From: Burkholderiales bacterium
GTDB taxonomy: Bacteria; Pseudomonadota; Gammaproteobacteria; Burkholderiales; Burkholderiaceae_B
Length of the DNA stretch: 48,460 bases
Direction of reading: 5' to 3'
NCBI GenBank assembly: GCA_021300475.1
Contig: JAJTDO010000003.1
Span: 1 to 48,460, forward strand
Part shown: positions 38,905-45,427 of the stretch, in pieces
Layout of the letters: each line of letters begins with the position of its first letter
Numbering within the stretch: the stretch's first letter is position 1
Notes under the pieces: model-generated
Databases searched by the model: none
The model's input: only the letters and a program-made list of their open reading frames with translations
Told to the model about the DNA's origin: nothing
Made by a program: the position numbers and the translations under genes

Positions 38905-41160
38905 ATGTCCTTGGGCAATCTGGGTAAAAGTGCGGTTGCTGCCGGGGCGCTGGCCATCTCCTTTGCCCCGGTCGACATAGGCTACGGTCTGATTGTGTTT
39001 CAAATGCTGGGTCACGGCTATGAAGGCTTGGGCGTGGCATCGGGTTGGCTGGGGGTGTTGGTCAGCACTGCTTTTGTCGCTTTGCGCTTGAATTCCGGGC
39101 ATATTTTTACGTCCGTTCGTCCCGCCCAGACCTTGAGTCTGGCTGCGCTGCTGGGGTTGCTGTTGCACGGCCAGACGTTTGGCTCTGAGGCTGAAAAAGT
39201 CGCTTTGGGTTTGTTGGCCGTGATGGTTTGCACCGCTTTGTCCGGGCTGATTCAGATGTTGATGGGTTATGCCCATGTGGGGCGACTGGTCAGTTTTATA
39301 CCCCGGGCTGTTTTGTCTGGCGTGGCCTCTGCTGCAGCCATCGGTTTGGCGCTCAATGCCAGCAAAACCCTGTTTCGCCTGTTCAGCGCAGGCTTTGTCC
39401 TGCCACCAGAGGCGACGCTTTGGCAAGCGCCCGGGCTCGCCGCCCAAGCCTTGCTTTGGCTGGCTTTCATTGTTGTTGTCCTGGCCTTGATGAACTGGGC
39501 TGCCAGACATCTGGTGTCCTTGAATTGGTCTTTGGTGGGTTTGTGTTCCGGTGTGGTGGCGTATTGGGGCATCAACAGCCTGTTGCCCAATGAGACTTCC
39601 CTGCCTTTGTTGGGCGCAACGCTGCCTGCCATTTCCGTTCCTTCGCAGGCACCTTTTTTTATGTCCGCATGGGTTTTGGCCGGACATCCTGACACCCTGC
39701 CGCAACTGGTACTGCTTGCGCTGCCTTACGCTTTGGTCATTGCCATCATCAATTCACTGGAGGCCTTGGTTTACAACGCTCGTTTTGAACGCAGTACGGA
39801 AATTGTGCATGACCCCCGCAACCTGTTGATTGCCTTGGGGCAAGGTAACTTTTTGGGTGGGGTGCTGGGTGGTTTGCCAGTGTCTTGTTCAAGTACGAAG
39901 ATGGCGCTGGCTTACCAATCCGGTGTCAGGGATTTAAAGGGTGTGGGCTTTCACTCTTTGATGTTGGTGGGTTTGATTCTGGCCACGCCGCTGTATGTGC
40001 ACTTCATTCCGAAGCTGGCAGTCTCGCTCGTGATGTTGTATTTGTCCTGGGTGATGCTGGATGCCTGGTCACGTTTGCAACTGTTTGGTTGGCTGCGACC
40101 TTCTTCTTTGATGGGACGCATCAGGGACCCTCACTCTACCCCGATTATTTTTTTGGTGGTCCTTGCCTCTGCCCTGTTGAGCAACTTGGCCTGGGGTGTG
40201 GCTGTGGGTTTGTTGTGCGCTGTTTTTGTGTTTGTGCAGCGTCAGAGCCAGAGCGTGGTTCGTCGTTGCGGATCCATTTTTTTCCGCCGTTCCGTGGTGA
40301 CGCGCAACGCTGCGCAAAATGAGTGCCTGAAGCTGTTCAGCAACCGGGTTCTGTTTTTTGAGTTGCAGGGCGCCTTGTTCTTTGGCACTTCGGAGCAACT
40401 GCTCAAAGAGATCAGAGGGCTGATGGATGCCGACACTGAGATGGTCATTCTGGATGCCAGAAAGGTGCTGGAAATTGATGATTCCGGCTGTGAGACCATT
40501 GAGCGTTTGCAAGGTGACATGCTCAAACGCGGTGGTGCGCTGGTGTTGTCGGGTTGGAACGAAAATGTACAACGTGTAAGCCGCCTGGAGGTGACACAGC
40601 TCAAACAGGCCATCAAGCAGCCGAGTTTCCGCAGTCTGGACGAAGCCATTGAGTTTGCTGAAGATTTCCTGATCAAACGCCATGGCTCTGAAGAGGCGAA
40701 AACGGAAATATGCGTATTTGATCCGGAAGGCAAGCAGTTGCGCTTGATACAGGCGGTGCCGCAGGCCTTGCGTGCGCGCTTGTTGTTAAACCTTGAGCAC
40801 TGTGAGTTTGCGGATGGGCAGCATATTTTTCACCGTGGCGACCCAAGCAGGCACATGTACATTGTGGTTTGCGGGCGCGTGGACATTTGGCTCAACCATG
40901 CGCGGGAAGATGCTGTCCGTCTGGCGTCTTTCCGGCACGGTGTCAGCTTTGGTGAAATGGGTCTTCTTAGAAACGAGGCCCGAACCGCCGATGCGGTTGC
41001 TGTGGGCGAGGTTCAGGCCTTGTCCCTGTCTCGGGAGAGCCTGGATTTGATGCGCCGTGAGTCGCCCAATCTGCTGGCCCATGTGCTGGAGACCATCAAT
41101 GAAGATCTGGCGTACCGGTTAGGGCAAACCAACGGTGCGCTGCGGCTTGCCCTGGAGTAG
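38905..41160 (+). CDS. SulP anion transporter fused to STAS and cyclic-nucleotide-binding domains
   Basis: This 751-residue membrane protein joins three domains. Residues 1-445 form a SulP/SLC26-type anion transporter with about 12 helices. Residues 478-590 form a STAS domain with the loop EIDDSGCETIE (523-533), whose Ser527 matches the phosphorylatable Ser of anti-sigma antagonists. Residues 615-730 form a cyclic-nucleotide-binding domain with the phosphate-binding cassette FGEMGLLRNEARTA (682-695). Anion uptake gated by cAMP or cGMP is a reasonable inference; the anion (sulfate, bicarbonate, other) is unknown. It is the last gene of the b561 series and ends in a weak hairpin. Confidence 0.9.
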   Translation: MSLGNLGKSAVAAGALAISFAPVDIGYGLIVFQMLGHGYEGLGVASGWLGVLVSTAFVALRLNSGHIFTSVRPAQTLSLAALLGLLLHGQTFGSEAEKVALGLLAVMVCTALSGLIQMLMGYAHVGRLVSFIPRAVLSGVASAAAIGLALNASKTLFRLFSAGFVLPPEATLWQAPGLAAQALLWLAFIVVVLALMNWAARHLVSLNWSLVGLCSGVVAYWGINSLLPNETSLPLLGATLPAISVPSQAPFFMSAWVLAGHPDTLPQLVLLALPYALVIAIINSLEALVYNARFERSTEIVHDPRNLLIALGQGNFLGGVLGGLPVSCSSTKMALAYQSGVRDLKGVGFHSLMLVGLILATPLYVHFIPKLAVSLVMLYLSWVMLDAWSRLQLFGWLRPSSLMGRIRDPHSTPIIFLVVLASALLSNLAWGVAVGLLCAVFVFVQRQSQSVVRRCGSIFFRRSVVTRNAAQNECLKLFSNRVLFFELQGALFFGTSEQLLKEIRGLMDADTEMVILDARKVLEIDDSGCETIERLQGDMLKRGGALVLSGWNENVQRVSRLEVTQLKQAIKQPSFRSLDEAIEFAEDFLIKRHGSEEAKTEICVFDPEGKQLRLIQAVPQALRARLLLNLEHCEFADGQHIFHRGDPSRHMYIVVCGRVDIWLNHAREDAVRLASFRHGVSFGEMGLLRNEARTADAVAVGEVQALSLSRESLDLMRRESPNLLAHVLETINEDLAYRLGQTNGALRLALE

Positions 41161-41197: not shown

Positions 41198-41797
41198 TCA
41201 GGCCTGAGAGATCGCCGCTTCAATTTGTGAGAACGTGTAGGCCTTTAAGGGATCCACTACGGCAATGCCCATCTGGCGTGCAATTTGTGTGGATGAATAC
41301 AGGCCAATGACGGTGAAGTCGCCACCTTCTTTGCTGGTGGTGACCAAAGCGTGTTGGCGTCCCCTGCTTTTCAGGGTGGAAATGATGTGTCCCAACTCGG
41401 CCTTCACAACCTTTCCGTAGTCCAGAAATTCCAGATCACAGGCCTTTGTCATTAAATCGTCCACGGTAAGCTCTGGGACCCGTCTGGCAGAGCCTGTGGC
41501 CGTTTTAATCGATTTTTCCCCGGCCAGGTCTGTCGCTGTGATCAACCCCGACAATTCTCCGCGCGCCCCTTTTACGAAAAGCAGTTTCACGCCGCAAACA
41601 ATCATGGTTGTGCGGGCCTGTTCAAGCGTGGCGTCGCCCGTGATGCTGATGGGGTGTATTTTGCGCAGATCCGTCATGGCTTCAACGGCGGGTGAGTCTT
41701 GGGTCAAGACATTGGGTAGGGTGGGGTCTGCCAGATCAAGCGTTGCTGAGCCGTGAAGTGTGCTGTGGGAAAGCGCTGCGTAGAATTGCCGAATCAT
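41198..41797 (-). CDS. CBS-pair domain protein
   Basis: CBS pairs bind adenosyl nucleotides and act as cellular energy or redox sensors. The 199-residue protein has two CBS motifs, about 45-100 (HPISITGDATLEQARTTMIV, GLITATDLAG) and 110-190 (VDDLMTKACD, VIGLYSSTQIARQMG). No catalytic or transport domain is attached. The first 45 residues are unrelated to the family. It is separated from the upstream decarboxylase operon by a strong terminator, so it is a separate transcript. Partner unknown. Confidence 0.85.
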   Translation of the reverse strand: MIRQFYAALSHSTLHGSATLDLADPTLPNVLTQDSPAVEAMTDLRKIHPISITGDATLEQARTTMIVCGVKLLFVKGARGELSGLITATDLAGEKSIKTATGSARRVPELTVDDLMTKACDLEFLDYGKVVKAELGHIISTLKSRGRQHALVTTSKEGGDFTVIGLYSSTQIARQMGIAVVDPLKAYTFSQIEAAISQA

Positions 41798-41924: not shown

Positions 41925-42671
41925 TTATTTTGCCAAATAGTCGTGCAAAACCCGACCGTAGGGCAATGTCATATCAGTGACAAATTGTTTCCCGCCAATA
42001 ATTTTACGAATTGGCAAGTCAGCAAAAGGTGCATTCACAGAAGGAATCAGTTCCAGACGGGCTGGACCTGTCCAAGCGCCTTTAACAGTGATGTTCGTGA
42101 AATTAACGCCAACCAGTTGTGCAATCGCAGGTTTTCCGTCGATGTCAGGAATGATTTTCAAGGTCACTTGCGTGCGCTTGAGCATTTCTTCTGCGCGAGC
42201 GATGTTGCCTGCATCAAAAGCGTCGTGCTTATACACCATGGTGCCCGTGGCCACGCGCTGTCCTGCGTAAACCAGATTGCCTGTCAGGGTGTCGCCTGTC
42301 ACTTTCAAAACTGGCTGACCGTGCTTCATCGGGTAGCCCCAGATCTCGCGGCCACCGGCCAAAGGTGGGCAGTTGTCTACCACCATCTGGCTGATGAAAA
42401 CGCAAGACTCGCCCTTGAACTTGCAGGGAATGGTCTGGGCTGCGGCAGCGTAGGCACCAAAGCCTTCGCCATCGGGCAAGTCCAGCCACTGGAATGAAAC
42501 CACGTTGCCATCGGGTTCTAGCGGTTCGGGCAGCAAGGCACGAATTGCATCAGCGTCGGTTTCGTAGCTGACGATCATGTATTGCCGATCGAAAAACTTG
42601 TAAGGCCCTCTTGGGAAGGTGGGACTTTGCAAGGGCATGGAAGGTAGTGCGCGGACGTCGGCCTTGTTCAT
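41925..42671 (-). CDS. Acetoacetate decarboxylase paralogue lacking key catalytic residues
   Basis: This 248-residue protein is clearly of the acetoacetate decarboxylase fold and aligns with its upstream neighbour end to end (for example PSMP, GPYKFFDRQYMIVSYETDA, PEPLEP, GGREIWGYP, DTLTG, GGKQF). The residue equal to the Schiff-base Lys (YPKK) is Met115 in GYPMKHG. The two catalytic glutamates are replaced by Gln61 and Ala76, while Arg29 is kept. It probably does not decarboxylate acetoacetate by the known mechanism. It could be a non-catalytic partner of the intact copy, a different enzyme, or a regulator. Its ATG overlaps the stop of that copy (ATGA), implying coupled synthesis. Confidence 0.9.
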   Translation of the reverse strand: MNKADVRALPSMPLQSPTFPRGPYKFFDRQYMIVSYETDADAIRALLPEPLEPDGNVVSFQWLDLPDGEGFGAYAAAAQTIPCKFKGESCVFISQMVVDNCPPLAGGREIWGYPMKHGQPVLKVTGDTLTGNLVYAGQRVATGTMVYKHDAFDAGNIARAEEMLKRTQVTLKIIPDIDGKPAIAQLVGVNFTNITVKGAWTGPARLELIPSVNAPFADLPIRKIIGGKQFVTDMTLPYGRVLHDYLAK

Positions 42672-43423
42672 GCGTCTTGATCCTTCAGGTAGTCATACAG
42701 CACACGGCCGTGGGGCAGTGTCAGGTCGCCGATGAAGTGCTTGCCACCCACAATCTTCTTGATGGGAAGATCTGCAGCCGGAGCGTTTACGTGAGGAATC
42801 AAGTGCAGGCGTGCGGGTGACAACCAGCTGCCCTTGATGGTGACATCAATCAGATTGTAGGCAACGAGCTGGCAGATTTTTGGTTTGCCATCAACGTCGG
42901 GAATAATCTTCAGGTTGCACTGTGTTTTGGTCATCGCCTTGGCCATGGCTTCGACACCACCGGGTGACTCTTGGTGTTTGTAGGCCATGGTACCCATTGC
43001 CACCATCTGACCGGCGTAATGCAGGGTGCCTGTCAGGGTGTCGGATGCAACTTCCAGCTTTGGATGCGCATACTTCTTCGGGAAACCCCAAATTTCACGA
43101 CCAGCAGAAATGGGAGGCTCGTCGTCCAGGTACATTTGCGCTGTGAAGTTGATTGGCTCACCCTTGTACAGACAAGGAATGACCACGCCACTTTCAGTGT
43201 AGTCGCCAAAGCCTGAGCTGTCGGGCATGCGGATCCACTCGTACAGCACGTGGCCGTCAGGGTTGGGTTCCAAAGGCTCAGGTACCGCTGCACGCAGCAG
43301 GTCTTTGTCGGTTTCATAAGTCACGATCATGTATTCGCGATTTACAAAACGGTAAGGACCCATTGGATAGCTTGGGCTGGCTGCCGGCATTGACGGCAGC
43401 TTGAGGATGTCTTCAACTTTCAT
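42668..43423 (-). CDS. adc: Acetoacetate decarboxylase
   Basis: The enzyme converts acetoacetate to acetone and CO2 through a Schiff base on Lys. The 251-residue protein keeps all known key residues at the expected places: Arg29, Glu62, Glu77, and Lys116-Lys117 in GREIWGFPKKYAHP. It lies directly after the patatin-like gene in an operon led by 3-hydroxybutyrate dehydrogenase, which produces acetoacetate. The last four bases overlap the start of an altered second copy. Activity on acetoacetate is inferred from residues and context. Confidence 0.92.
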   Translation of the reverse strand: MKVEDILKLPSMPAASPSYPMGPYRFVNREYMIVTYETDKDLLRAAVPEPLEPNPDGHVLYEWIRMPDSSGFGDYTESGVVIPCLYKGEPINFTAQMYLDDEPPISAGREIWGFPKKYAHPKLEVASDTLTGTLHYAGQMVAMGTMAYKHQESPGGVEAMAKAMTKTQCNLKIIPDVDGKPKICQLVAYNLIDVTIKGSWLSPARLHLIPHVNAPAADLPIKKIVGGKHFIGDLTLPHGRVLYDYLKDQDA

Positions 43424-43434
43424 TCATTTTCCTT

Positions 43435-44484
43435 TCAAAGGAACTCTTTGGCCAGGTCGACAGACGAGCGCACGCCAATGTGTTCGAAATTGTTTTTCAG
43501 CCATTCGCTTGCCACTGCGCGACCACGGTCACGCAACATGGTCAGGAAGTCCCAGTCATTGAGGAACTTGCTGGAAACGGACAGATCAGACAAGGCCTGA
43601 TCAGCGCGCATGGAGTGCATCAAGACAGGTTTGAGCTTGCCTGCGTGTTCATCCTTGATCCATCCATCAGCGATCAGCTTTTGAACAAAGTGAATTGCAC
43701 GCAATTCCTTGATCAACGCGCAGTTGAATGTGATTTCATTCATGCGGTTGAAAATGTCTTGTGAAGACATCGGAGGTGCGGGACGCTCAATCGGATTGAT
43801 GTGAACAATCAGTGTGTCCTGGGTGTCAGTGCTGTAGAACAGCGGATACAACACCGGGTTGCCCATGAAGCCGCCGTCCCAGAAGTACTCGCCGTCAATT
43901 TCAACGGCTTGAAACAGGTAAGGCAGGCAGGCTGAGGCCAACACTGCGTCTGCGGTCACTTCTTCCGTTCCAAAAACCCTGGCTTTGCCGGTGCGCACGT
44001 TGGTGGCTGACAAAAACAGTTTGGTCTTGGAGTTTTTTTCCAGGTCTTCGAAGTCCACCACGGATTCCAGCACTTCCTTCAACGGATTGAAGTTGGTGGG
44101 GTTCAGTTGGTAGGGTGAAAACGAGTGGGTGATCATTTTGAACATCTCGGATGCAATCGAGTTGTCCAAGCTGTGACCAAACAGCATCTTTTCCAGAGGT
44201 GAGCGCTTGATGGGGCTGTATTTCTCGCCGGCATCGGAAATCGCTTTCCAGAATTGATGAAGTTTTTCACGGGCAGCGTCCGGGCCCTTGATGGCGCCGT
44301 AGGCATACACAACAGCATTCATTGAGCCTGCGCTGGTGCCTGACACGCCTTCGATTTCTATGCGACCATCTTCGAGCAAGCGATCGATCACGCCCCAGGC
44401 GAAAGCGCCGTGAGCGCCGCCACCTTGCAATGCGAGATTGATTTTTTTAATCTCGTTTGCGGGCGTTTTTTTGGTTGTTGCCAT
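43435..44484 (-). CDS. Patatin-like phospholipase
   Basis: This is a predicted acyl hydrolase with the patatin Ser-Asp dyad: oxyanion-hole LALQGGGAHGAFAWGV near the N-terminus, nucleophile GVSGTSAGSMNA, and Asp in the DGGFMGNP motif. The protein has 349 residues and no signal peptide, so it should act in the cytoplasm. It sits between 3-hydroxybutyrate dehydrogenase and acetoacetate decarboxylase, an arrangement known in other Burkholderiales. A role in releasing storage lipid or polyhydroxybutyrate-associated material is likely but unproven. Confidence 0.92.
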   Translation of the reverse strand: MATTKKTPANEIKKINLALQGGGAHGAFAWGVIDRLLEDGRIEIEGVSGTSAGSMNAVVYAYGAIKGPDAAREKLHQFWKAISDAGEKYSPIKRSPLEKMLFGHSLDNSIASEMFKMITHSFSPYQLNPTNFNPLKEVLESVVDFEDLEKNSKTKLFLSATNVRTGKARVFGTEEVTADAVLASACLPYLFQAVEIDGEYFWDGGFMGNPVLYPLFYSTDTQDTLIVHINPIERPAPPMSSQDIFNRMNEITFNCALIKELRAIHFVQKLIADGWIKDEHAGKLKPVLMHSMRADQALSDLSVSSKFLNDWDFLTMLRDRGRAVASEWLKNNFEHIGVRSSVDLAKEFL

Positions 44485-44506: not shown

Positions 44507-45289
44507 TTATTGGGCGGTCCAGCCGCCTTCAACTGCAATGTGTGTGCCGGTGATCGAAGCGGCTGAGTCTGAGCACAGGAACAAGGATGTACCTGCGATT
44601 TCTTCAACTGTTACGAAACGCTTGGTAGGCTGTGCAGCCAACAAAACATTTTTGATCACTTCTTCTTCTGAAATGCCGCGGGCTTTTGCAGTATCGGGAA
44701 TCTGCTTTTGCACCAACGGTGTCAAAACATAGCCTGGGCAGATGCTGTTGGCAGTGATGCCGTTTTCAGCCAATTCCAGAGCAATGGTTGTTGTGAAACC
44801 CAGGATGCCGTGTTTGGCGGCAACATAGGCTGTCTTGAACTTGGAAGCCACCAAACCGTGGGCAGACGCCACGTTGATGATTCGGCCCCAGCCCTTGGAT
44901 TTCATGTAAGGCACGGCACAGCGTGTGGTGTGGAAGGCAGAGGTCAGGTTGATGGCCAGAATTGCATCCCACTTTGCCGTTGGAAATTCTTCCACGGGGC
45001 AAACGTGCTGAATACCAGCGTTGTTGATCAGAATGTCCACACCGCCAAAGGTGTCGGCTGCACGCTTCATCATGGCTTCAATCTGGTCAGGCTTGCTCAT
45101 GTCGGCGCCGTCATACAGAACTTTCACGCCAAATTTGCTTTCCAGGCCGGCACGGATACCCTCGATTTCGGCTGCATCGCCAAAACCATTGATCACCATG
45201 TTGATGCCTGCGGCTGCGAAACCTTCAGCAATACCAAGACCGATACCGCTGGTTGAACCTGTAATGACTGCGCACTTGCCTTTTAACAT
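44507..45289 (-). CDS. 3-hydroxybutyrate dehydrogenase
   Basis: The enzyme interconverts D-3-hydroxybutyrate and acetoacetate with NAD+, the entry to use of polyhydroxybutyrate. The 260-residue SDR has TGSTSGIGLGIAEGFAAAG, NNAGIQHVCPVEEFP (His in the motif typical of this enzyme), SAHGLVAS and YVAAKHGILGF. It ends GTHIAVEGGWTAQ, as in bacterial BdhA/HbdH. I chose the ATG at 45289, preceded by GAGGAGAG; the frame stays open upstream for 46 codons without any family match. It begins the operon. Confidence 0.95.
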   Translation of the reverse strand: MLKGKCAVITGSTSGIGLGIAEGFAAAGINMVINGFGDAAEIEGIRAGLESKFGVKVLYDGADMSKPDQIEAMMKRAADTFGGVDILINNAGIQHVCPVEEFPTAKWDAILAINLTSAFHTTRCAVPYMKSKGWGRIINVASAHGLVASKFKTAYVAAKHGILGFTTTIALELAENGITANSICPGYVLTPLVQKQIPDTAKARGISEEEVIKNVLLAAQPTKRFVTVEEIAGTSLFLCSDSAASITGTHIAVEGGWTAQ

Positions 45290-45397
45290 TGAGAACTCTC
45301 CTCTGAGCTGTTTTTTTGGGAATTGGGAAACTGCGATGGCAAAGCGCCCCCGGACTTTATTGCTGAAAGTCTTTTTGGCGCATTTAACGAAACAGTA

Positions 45398-45427
45398 TGT
45401 ATACAAAATATACGAACTCGCCTGCAA
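45398..45427 (-). promoter_or_regulatory. Promoter of the hydroxybutyrate operon
   Basis: On the minus strand TTGCAG (complement of 45422-45427), an 18-nt spacer, then TATACA (complement of 45398-45403). The leader to the dehydrogenase ATG would be about 100 nt. Confidence 0.55.

Follow-up and report, generated by a model that had tools for sequence, protein, structure and literature searches.

Known systems related to the gene pair

Acetoacetate decarboxylase is a model for the perturbation of the pKa of a lysine by an enzyme, and is used for acetone production in engineered bacteria. Members of its family form large homo-oligomers; we take the Schiff-base lysine to be Lys115 of the Clostridium enzyme and the two active-site glutamates to be Glu61 and Glu76. 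Here we describe a pair formed by an intact decarboxylase (UP) and a paralogue encoded downstream of it (DN). The solved acetoacetate decarboxylases (3bgt, 3bh2 and 3c8w) resemble DN in full-length match, fold, Arg29 and second lysine, but differ from it at the Schiff-base lysine and at both active-site glutamates, which are absent from all 44 DN sequences compared. MppR (4jm3-4jme), a Streptomyces aldolase-dehydratase (4zbo/6eej) and Swit_4259 (5upb) share the fold of DN (Z 24-25), at only 16-26% identity to it, and 4zbo and 6eej keep a Pro-Lys-Lys motif, unlike DN. In the extracts consulted, MppR is described as an active-site-lysine cyclase (PMC10367076).

Dead paralogues retained beside an intact enzyme are described for trypanosomatids, where extracts of two papers present such prozymes for S-adenosylmethionine decarboxylase and deoxyhypusine synthase (PMC5201418, PMC3663545). 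DN resembles them in this retention, and one of the two enzymes is a decarboxylase; nevertheless, these prozymes are eukaryotic and belong to other families, and complex formation and activation were measured there, according to the same extracts, whereas we infer them for DN. In Legionella pneumophila, a mutant of the bdhA-patD operon was impaired in polyhydroxybutyrate breakdown, as stated in the extracts of PMC4549902. A 3-hydroxybutyrate dehydrogenase gene and a patatin-like gene stand together in that operon, as they do near our pair; the term "acetoacetate decarboxylase" does not occur in the text of that paper, which is silent on a decarboxylase pair. Among the matches listed from the open-access literature, neither titles nor the beginnings of abstracts describe an inactive or paired acetoacetate decarboxylase, and no description of the gene neighbourhood of such a pair appears in open-access titles and abstract beginnings. 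Dead paralogues that control their enzyme are already known; what would be new is one in the acetoacetate decarboxylase family.

The gene pair and its active-site residues

The window, that is, the whole stretch of 48,460 nucleotides analysed, encodes the two genes listed in Table 1, whose products are 57% identical over 248 columns. Both match Pfam ADC (PF06314) over its full length (E 2.8e-76 for UP and 7.4e-69 for DN) and NCBIfam NF002614 (353.7 and 303.1 bits, respectively; cut-off 150), and no other member passes this cut-off in the host genome (2.73 Mb). A third, weak match stays below it, at G000:C81:7700-7963 (L003).

Table 1. Features of the window and of the related loci, with their coordinates.
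Feature	Position	Strand	Basis
UP: acetoacetate decarboxylase, intact, 251 aa	42668..43423	-	ORF, PF06314, NF002614, residues
DN: paralogue without catalytic Lys/Glu, 248 aa, full-length ADC fold	41925..42671	-	ORF, PF06314, NF002614, residues, model
ATGA: 4 bases shared by the UP stop and the DN start	42668..42671	-	ORF coordinates and letters
Patatin-like protein (PF01734), upstream, same direction	43435..44484	-	Pfam
3-hydroxybutyrate dehydrogenase (bdhA), upstream, same direction	44507..45427	-	TIGR01963, 371.4 bits, cut-off 307.05
UP without DN	L182:3990-4730, L183:4040-4780		
Glu-type paralogues	L176:1035-1781, L189:1474-2241, L190:1399-2238, L188:1462-2244		

An earlier note on this DNA had assigned a complete set of catalytic residues to UP and their concerted loss to DN. 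We read Arg29, Glu62, Glu77, Lys116 and Lys117 in UP, and Arg29, Gln61, Ala76, Met115 and Lys116 in DN, in agreement with that assignment; the coordinates and the ATGA junction given there are also correct, and this overlap may couple the translation of the two genes. When DN was aligned with the three solved decarboxylases, the active-site stretches were free of gaps and offered no alternative Lys or Glu; a misalignment that conceals one was thereby rejected.

The predicted structure of DN, folded as a single chain, has the acetoacetate decarboxylase fold (pLDDT 81.4, pTM 0.81; weak at residues 1-19 and 105-108, the latter near an active-site stretch), and superimposes on 3bgt with a Z of 30.2 and an rmsd of 1.9 (229 aligned residues) and on 3c8w with a Z of 30.6 and an rmsd of 3.1 (233 aligned residues). 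The model of the UP chain was poor (pLDDT 66.9) and was left out.

Conservation of the pair across genomes

A scan of named bacterial genomes identified 43 further loci that encode DN. Together with that of the window, the 44 DN sequences, which include near-copies (e.g. L034/L036 and L014/L015/L046), all read R-Q-A-M-K at the five positions: Met replaces the Schiff-base lysine in 44/44 (UP has Lys in 43/44) and Gln and Ala replace the two glutamates in 44/44, so that the loss first noticed in the window is identical throughout and is not a matter of chance. UP reads R-E-E-K-K in 42 of the 43 loci, the exception being L004:5249-6001, where Asn takes the place of the Schiff-base lysine; because a second odd change, to Val, stands two codons before it and the sequence comes from a metagenome assembly, this may be an error or a real loss.

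The linkage of DN to an intact copy proposed in the earlier note extends to the relatives. At a threshold of E<=1e-15, each of the 43 genomes contains one UP, one DN and no third ADC match, and UP lies directly upstream of DN on the same strand in 42 of the 43 loci, with a gap of -4 to 36 bp in 39 of these 42 and of 40, 86 and 91 bp in the other three. Co-translation is not universal, because in L042 UP is placed tail to tail with DN, about 130 bases away. Sandarakinorhabdus limnophila DSM 17366 and Sphingomonas ursincola KR-99 are named strains with the pair. The labels of L010, L012, L032 and L035 (Bordetella parapertussis, Rhodoplanes, Klebsiella and Thermoflexus) are unlikely and not to be trusted; in the tree, UP and DN of these metagenome records fall among sequences from other Beta- and Alphaproteobacteria.

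The patterns used for the 43-locus scan include the Met-containing stretch, which biases this sample towards Met; profile searches served as a check free of that pattern, with a profile itself built from Met-bearing rows and on genomes that overlap partly with the 43-locus set. DN was found in the window genome only among 369 genomes of the class, and, as R-Q-A-M-K beside UP, in five of 296 genomes from the order to which S. ursincola belongs, where seven genomes had a single copy. With an E cut-off of 1e-60, beyond which further Lys-less copies may exist, two of 398 genomes of the phylum and five of 300 genomes of the order of L018 had DN, again as R-Q-A-M-K beside UP, and two of the latter 300 had UP alone. 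Within the family of the window (268 genomes), directly adjacent strong matches occur only in the window genome and in one genome of the same genus, whose residues were taken from L004, apparently the same assembly; most other genomes with a match have one. Two strong matches share a contig in G129 (2.0 kb apart) and in G102 (9.4 kb apart), with residues read only from the first G102 copy. In this family scan and in the 398-genome search, sequences were taken from the best-scoring matches only.

Carriage of DN on plasmids was considered and rejected: 79 plasmid records match, all below 60% identity, and the best of them (Methylobacterium bullatum), the only record of the 79 that was read, matches in one place and has Arg29, both glutamates and Lys-Lys. 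A DN-UP gene fusion was likewise rejected, as the 498-aa frame of L019 is a stop-free upstream extension and UP is there in another frame.

Selection on DN and its invariant pocket

DN evolves faster than UP, with a mean protein distance of 0.29 versus 0.18 over 44 genomes, and is nonetheless under strong constraint: its dN/dS lies between 0.010 and 0.127 (finite in 19 of 22 genome pairs), and that of UP between 0.000 and 0.087 (finite in 20 of 22). Neither relaxed selection nor an internal stop was found in DN from the 43 genomes and the window. The earlier note had argued against decay and had named a pseudogene in relatives, or a better alignment with Lys and Glu in the active site, as what would speak against its reading; neither appeared. 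In this respect DN resembles prozymes: it lacks the catalytic residues of an intact enzyme that its own genome encodes as well, and purifying selection acts on it.

Gln61, Gly68, Ala76, Tyr113 and Met115 of the DN pocket are invariant, and Arg29 and Lys116 are retained, in 44/44. In a comparison that left out the distant or odd single copies L092 and L097-L100, fourteen positions are fixed (>=95%) differently in UP and DN; ten of them fall within 62-77 or 101-119 and include the three catalytic positions and F114Y. This pocket is more frozen than a merely structural subunit would seem to require, which would fit binding or catalysis by DN itself and suggests that DN still binds something.

Inheritance of the pair and neighbouring genes

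UP sequences form one clade (SH-aLRT 87) and DN sequences another (SH-aLRT 99) in a tree from which six pairs and 13 singles, judged redundant by eye, were left out; both clades lie near unpaired single copies, and a long branch leads to DN. The fragments L096 and L101 were dropped before counts. Sphingomonadales stand amid betaproteobacterial sequences in both clades, at different places, and the trees suggest that pairs were passed together between the two groups.

No genome among the 43 has DN without UP. The reverse occurs in two near relatives: G1398 and G1518 have UP (87-88%) and no DN, at loci collinear with L030-L032 in which the next gene follows close behind UP, and no DN remnant was found in them at E up to 1. 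DN was evidently lost from these genomes by clean deletion. Residue 247 of their UP is Ala, common in DN, and is the sole consistent difference from the sister UPs, which would fit a deletion by recombination between UP and DN. Since close relatives of UP are also found as single copies, these two genomes are not alone in indicating that UP is not strictly dependent on DN.

Among the neighbours, the patatin-like gene is near the pair in at least 37 of the 43 related loci (>=45% identity over 60% of length) and bdhA in at least 33, contigs ending within some neighbourhoods. They occur in several orders and orientations, and the adjacency of UP and DN survives. The TTG start listed for BdhA is probably too early, and the TIGR01963 match begins at residue 51. 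Over 34 genomes, the correlation of protein distances (Pearson) is 0.86 for UP-DN, 0.75 for UP-patatin, 0.63 for UP-BdhA and 0.88 for patatin-BdhA, with cross values between the units of 0.58-0.76; UP-DN and patatin-BdhA are two co-inherited units, the correlation being one of co-inheritance and not of contact. A comparison of 20 neighbour proteins with Pfam revealed no additional function in common. The host genome has two matches to the polymer synthase family PhaC_N and a pair of CoA-transferase subunits, which could also use acetoacetate.

On the other side of the pair, a small CBS-domain-like protein, with a match below the family cut-off, is encoded just downstream of DN (41198-41797), and such a gene adjoins DN in L004 too; the stretch 38905-41160 encodes a fusion of a SulP-type transporter with STAS and a cyclic-nucleotide-binding domain.

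A second origin of an emptied active site

Another tandem was met in G1603 during the search of the L018 order. In the family of this genome, 18 of 23 genomes had a match, and the 23 members found comprise 19 with R-E-E-K-K and four with Glu in place of the Schiff-base lysine. These Glu-type paralogues have Gln or Arg at position 62, Leu, Ser or Thr at 77 and Glu at 116. In three cases the paralogue immediately follows an intact copy and precedes a dehydrogenase gene. The fourth sits on a contig of 3.3 kb, and its assembly (0.9 Mb) yielded no intact copy. Their dN/dS is 0.12-0.13 in the three of six pairs with unsaturated synonymous sites, the copies being diverged.

In trees that used 14 of the 44 pairs, the Glu-type paralogues group together inside their own lineage (SH-aLRT 99), at a long distance from DN. 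A common origin with DN was rejected with the three catalytic columns removed (log-likelihood difference 140.8, p-AU 1.5e-5), in a test on quick trees whose groups were defined once a first tree was known. At 73 positions conserved in UP and in intact relatives, the Glu-type sequences have lost exactly 62, 77 and 116 (4/4), and DN has lost seven, these three included (44/44; hypergeometric p 5.6e-4); L092, L093 and L097-L100 were left out of these counts and of the trees. L097-L100 keep Lys-Lys, with Arg29 and Glu61 variable, and L159, outside the fixed-position, tree and conserved-position sets, reads G-E-E-K-R. The trees indicate that bacteria have at least twice evolved a paralogue with an emptied active site next to an intact copy, the second lineage comprising four sequences. 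Both origins share the emptied site, the kept fold, Arg29, the second lysine and the intact neighbour, and differ in the replacement of the Schiff-base lysine.

A lone member of the family, L186:4846-5586 (= L092), has Ile29 and Arg-Arg for the Lys pair and keeps both glutamates (I-E-E-R-R); its genome measures 1.1 Mb, and a neighbouring gene matches the family of the Legionella major outer membrane protein.

Possible roles of DN

The earlier note had raised two functions, a non-catalytic subunit in a mixed complex and a new lysine-independent reaction. On balance we favour the former: DN would serve UP as a non-catalytic paralogous partner, most likely by entering a mixed oligomer with it and modulating the activity, stability or ligand response of UP. 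Since pairs arose at least twice in bacteria, DN probably works together with the enzyme and is not just a broken gene. The different replacement of the lysine in the second origin (Glu) argues for a non-catalytic partner rather than a single new chemistry, and so does the one-way dependence of DN on UP in the 43 genomes. Co-assembly is plausible, because the family forms large homo-oligomers and the paralogue is 57% identical to the enzyme. In such an arrangement, a decarboxylase copy that lost its Schiff-base lysine and both active-site glutamates would have been retained as the next gene after the intact one, in most cases at a very short gap that would favour joint production, and would act on UP in a prozyme-like manner, with the ligand for this tuning held in its vestigial pocket. 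BdhA would make acetoacetate from 3-hydroxybutyrate and UP would turn it into acetone and CO2, so that the pair may act in the use of polyhydroxybutyrate and acetoacetate; this pathway is suggested by the BdhA neighbour, by the Legionella bdhA-patD mutant and by the two PhaC_N matches. The loss of decarboxylase activity in DN, the complex, the direction of regulation and the flow of substrate are all things that we infer from sequence.

Co-inheritance of UP and DN also fits two enzymes of one pathway, and DN could be a separate enzyme, one that takes acetoacetate, acetone or another related keto acid as substrate in a reaction that needs no Schiff-base lysine or that uses Lys116. We consider this unlikely, but not to be set aside lightly. 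Ten of the fourteen fixed differences from UP are concentrated in the catalytic stretches, the pocket is frozen with Arg29 and Lys116 kept throughout, and other superfamily members carry out other reactions, e.g. the MppR cyclase, in the extracts of PMC10367076. Nevertheless, the distant members 4zbo and 6eej still show the Lys pair, DN occurs without UP in none of the 43 genomes, and the second lineage has Glu, not Met, at the lysine and Leu, Ser or Thr at the second glutamate; because these replacements differ, there is no new active site common to both lineages.

The retained Arg29 and a pocket frozen without catalytic groups would also suit a sensor or buffer that binds acetoacetate or acetone and is not physically joined to UP. 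This appears improbable in view of the one-gene adjacency in 42/43 loci and of an inheritance that follows UP more closely than it follows the patatin gene or bdhA; Pfam also found no attached output domain. Little credence is given to DN as an inhibitory (dominant-negative) subunit that lowers or thresholds the loss of acetone from polyhydroxybutyrate use: DN is dispensable, having been cleanly lost in two genomes that keep UP, and the genetic evidence is otherwise that of the partner reading, but the same sequence data fit activation equally. That DN is a decaying duplicate is a negligible prospect, since its faster evolution is outweighed by the lack of internal stops, a dN/dS of at most 0.127, a pocket invariant across Beta- and Alphaproteobacteria, the fact that no remnant was found in the two DN-less genomes, and a synonymous divergence that in most compared pairs disfavours recent mutual copying of the loci.

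Returning to DN as a non-catalytic partner, a broader proposal can be made, although tentatively and with less confidence than the partnership itself: two-subunit acetoacetate decarboxylases may have evolved at least twice, each joining, in a mixed oligomer, an intact subunit and a subunit whose active site was emptied at the same three positions, in which the latter would sense or gate the flow of acetoacetate from polyhydroxybutyrate to acetone.

Significance for the family

The presence of the pair in named strains makes these proposals directly testable. In some Sphingomonadales and Betaproteobacteria, part of the matches to the family models are proteins for which decarboxylation by the known mechanism is very unlikely. 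A dead paralogue that has persisted over long divergence, and was reached twice through loss of the same three catalytic residues, offers a natural experiment on why a non-catalytic partner is kept. If two-subunit decarboxylases of the proposed kind exist, they would represent a prozyme system in bacteria, for an enzyme that has long been regarded as a homo-oligomer.
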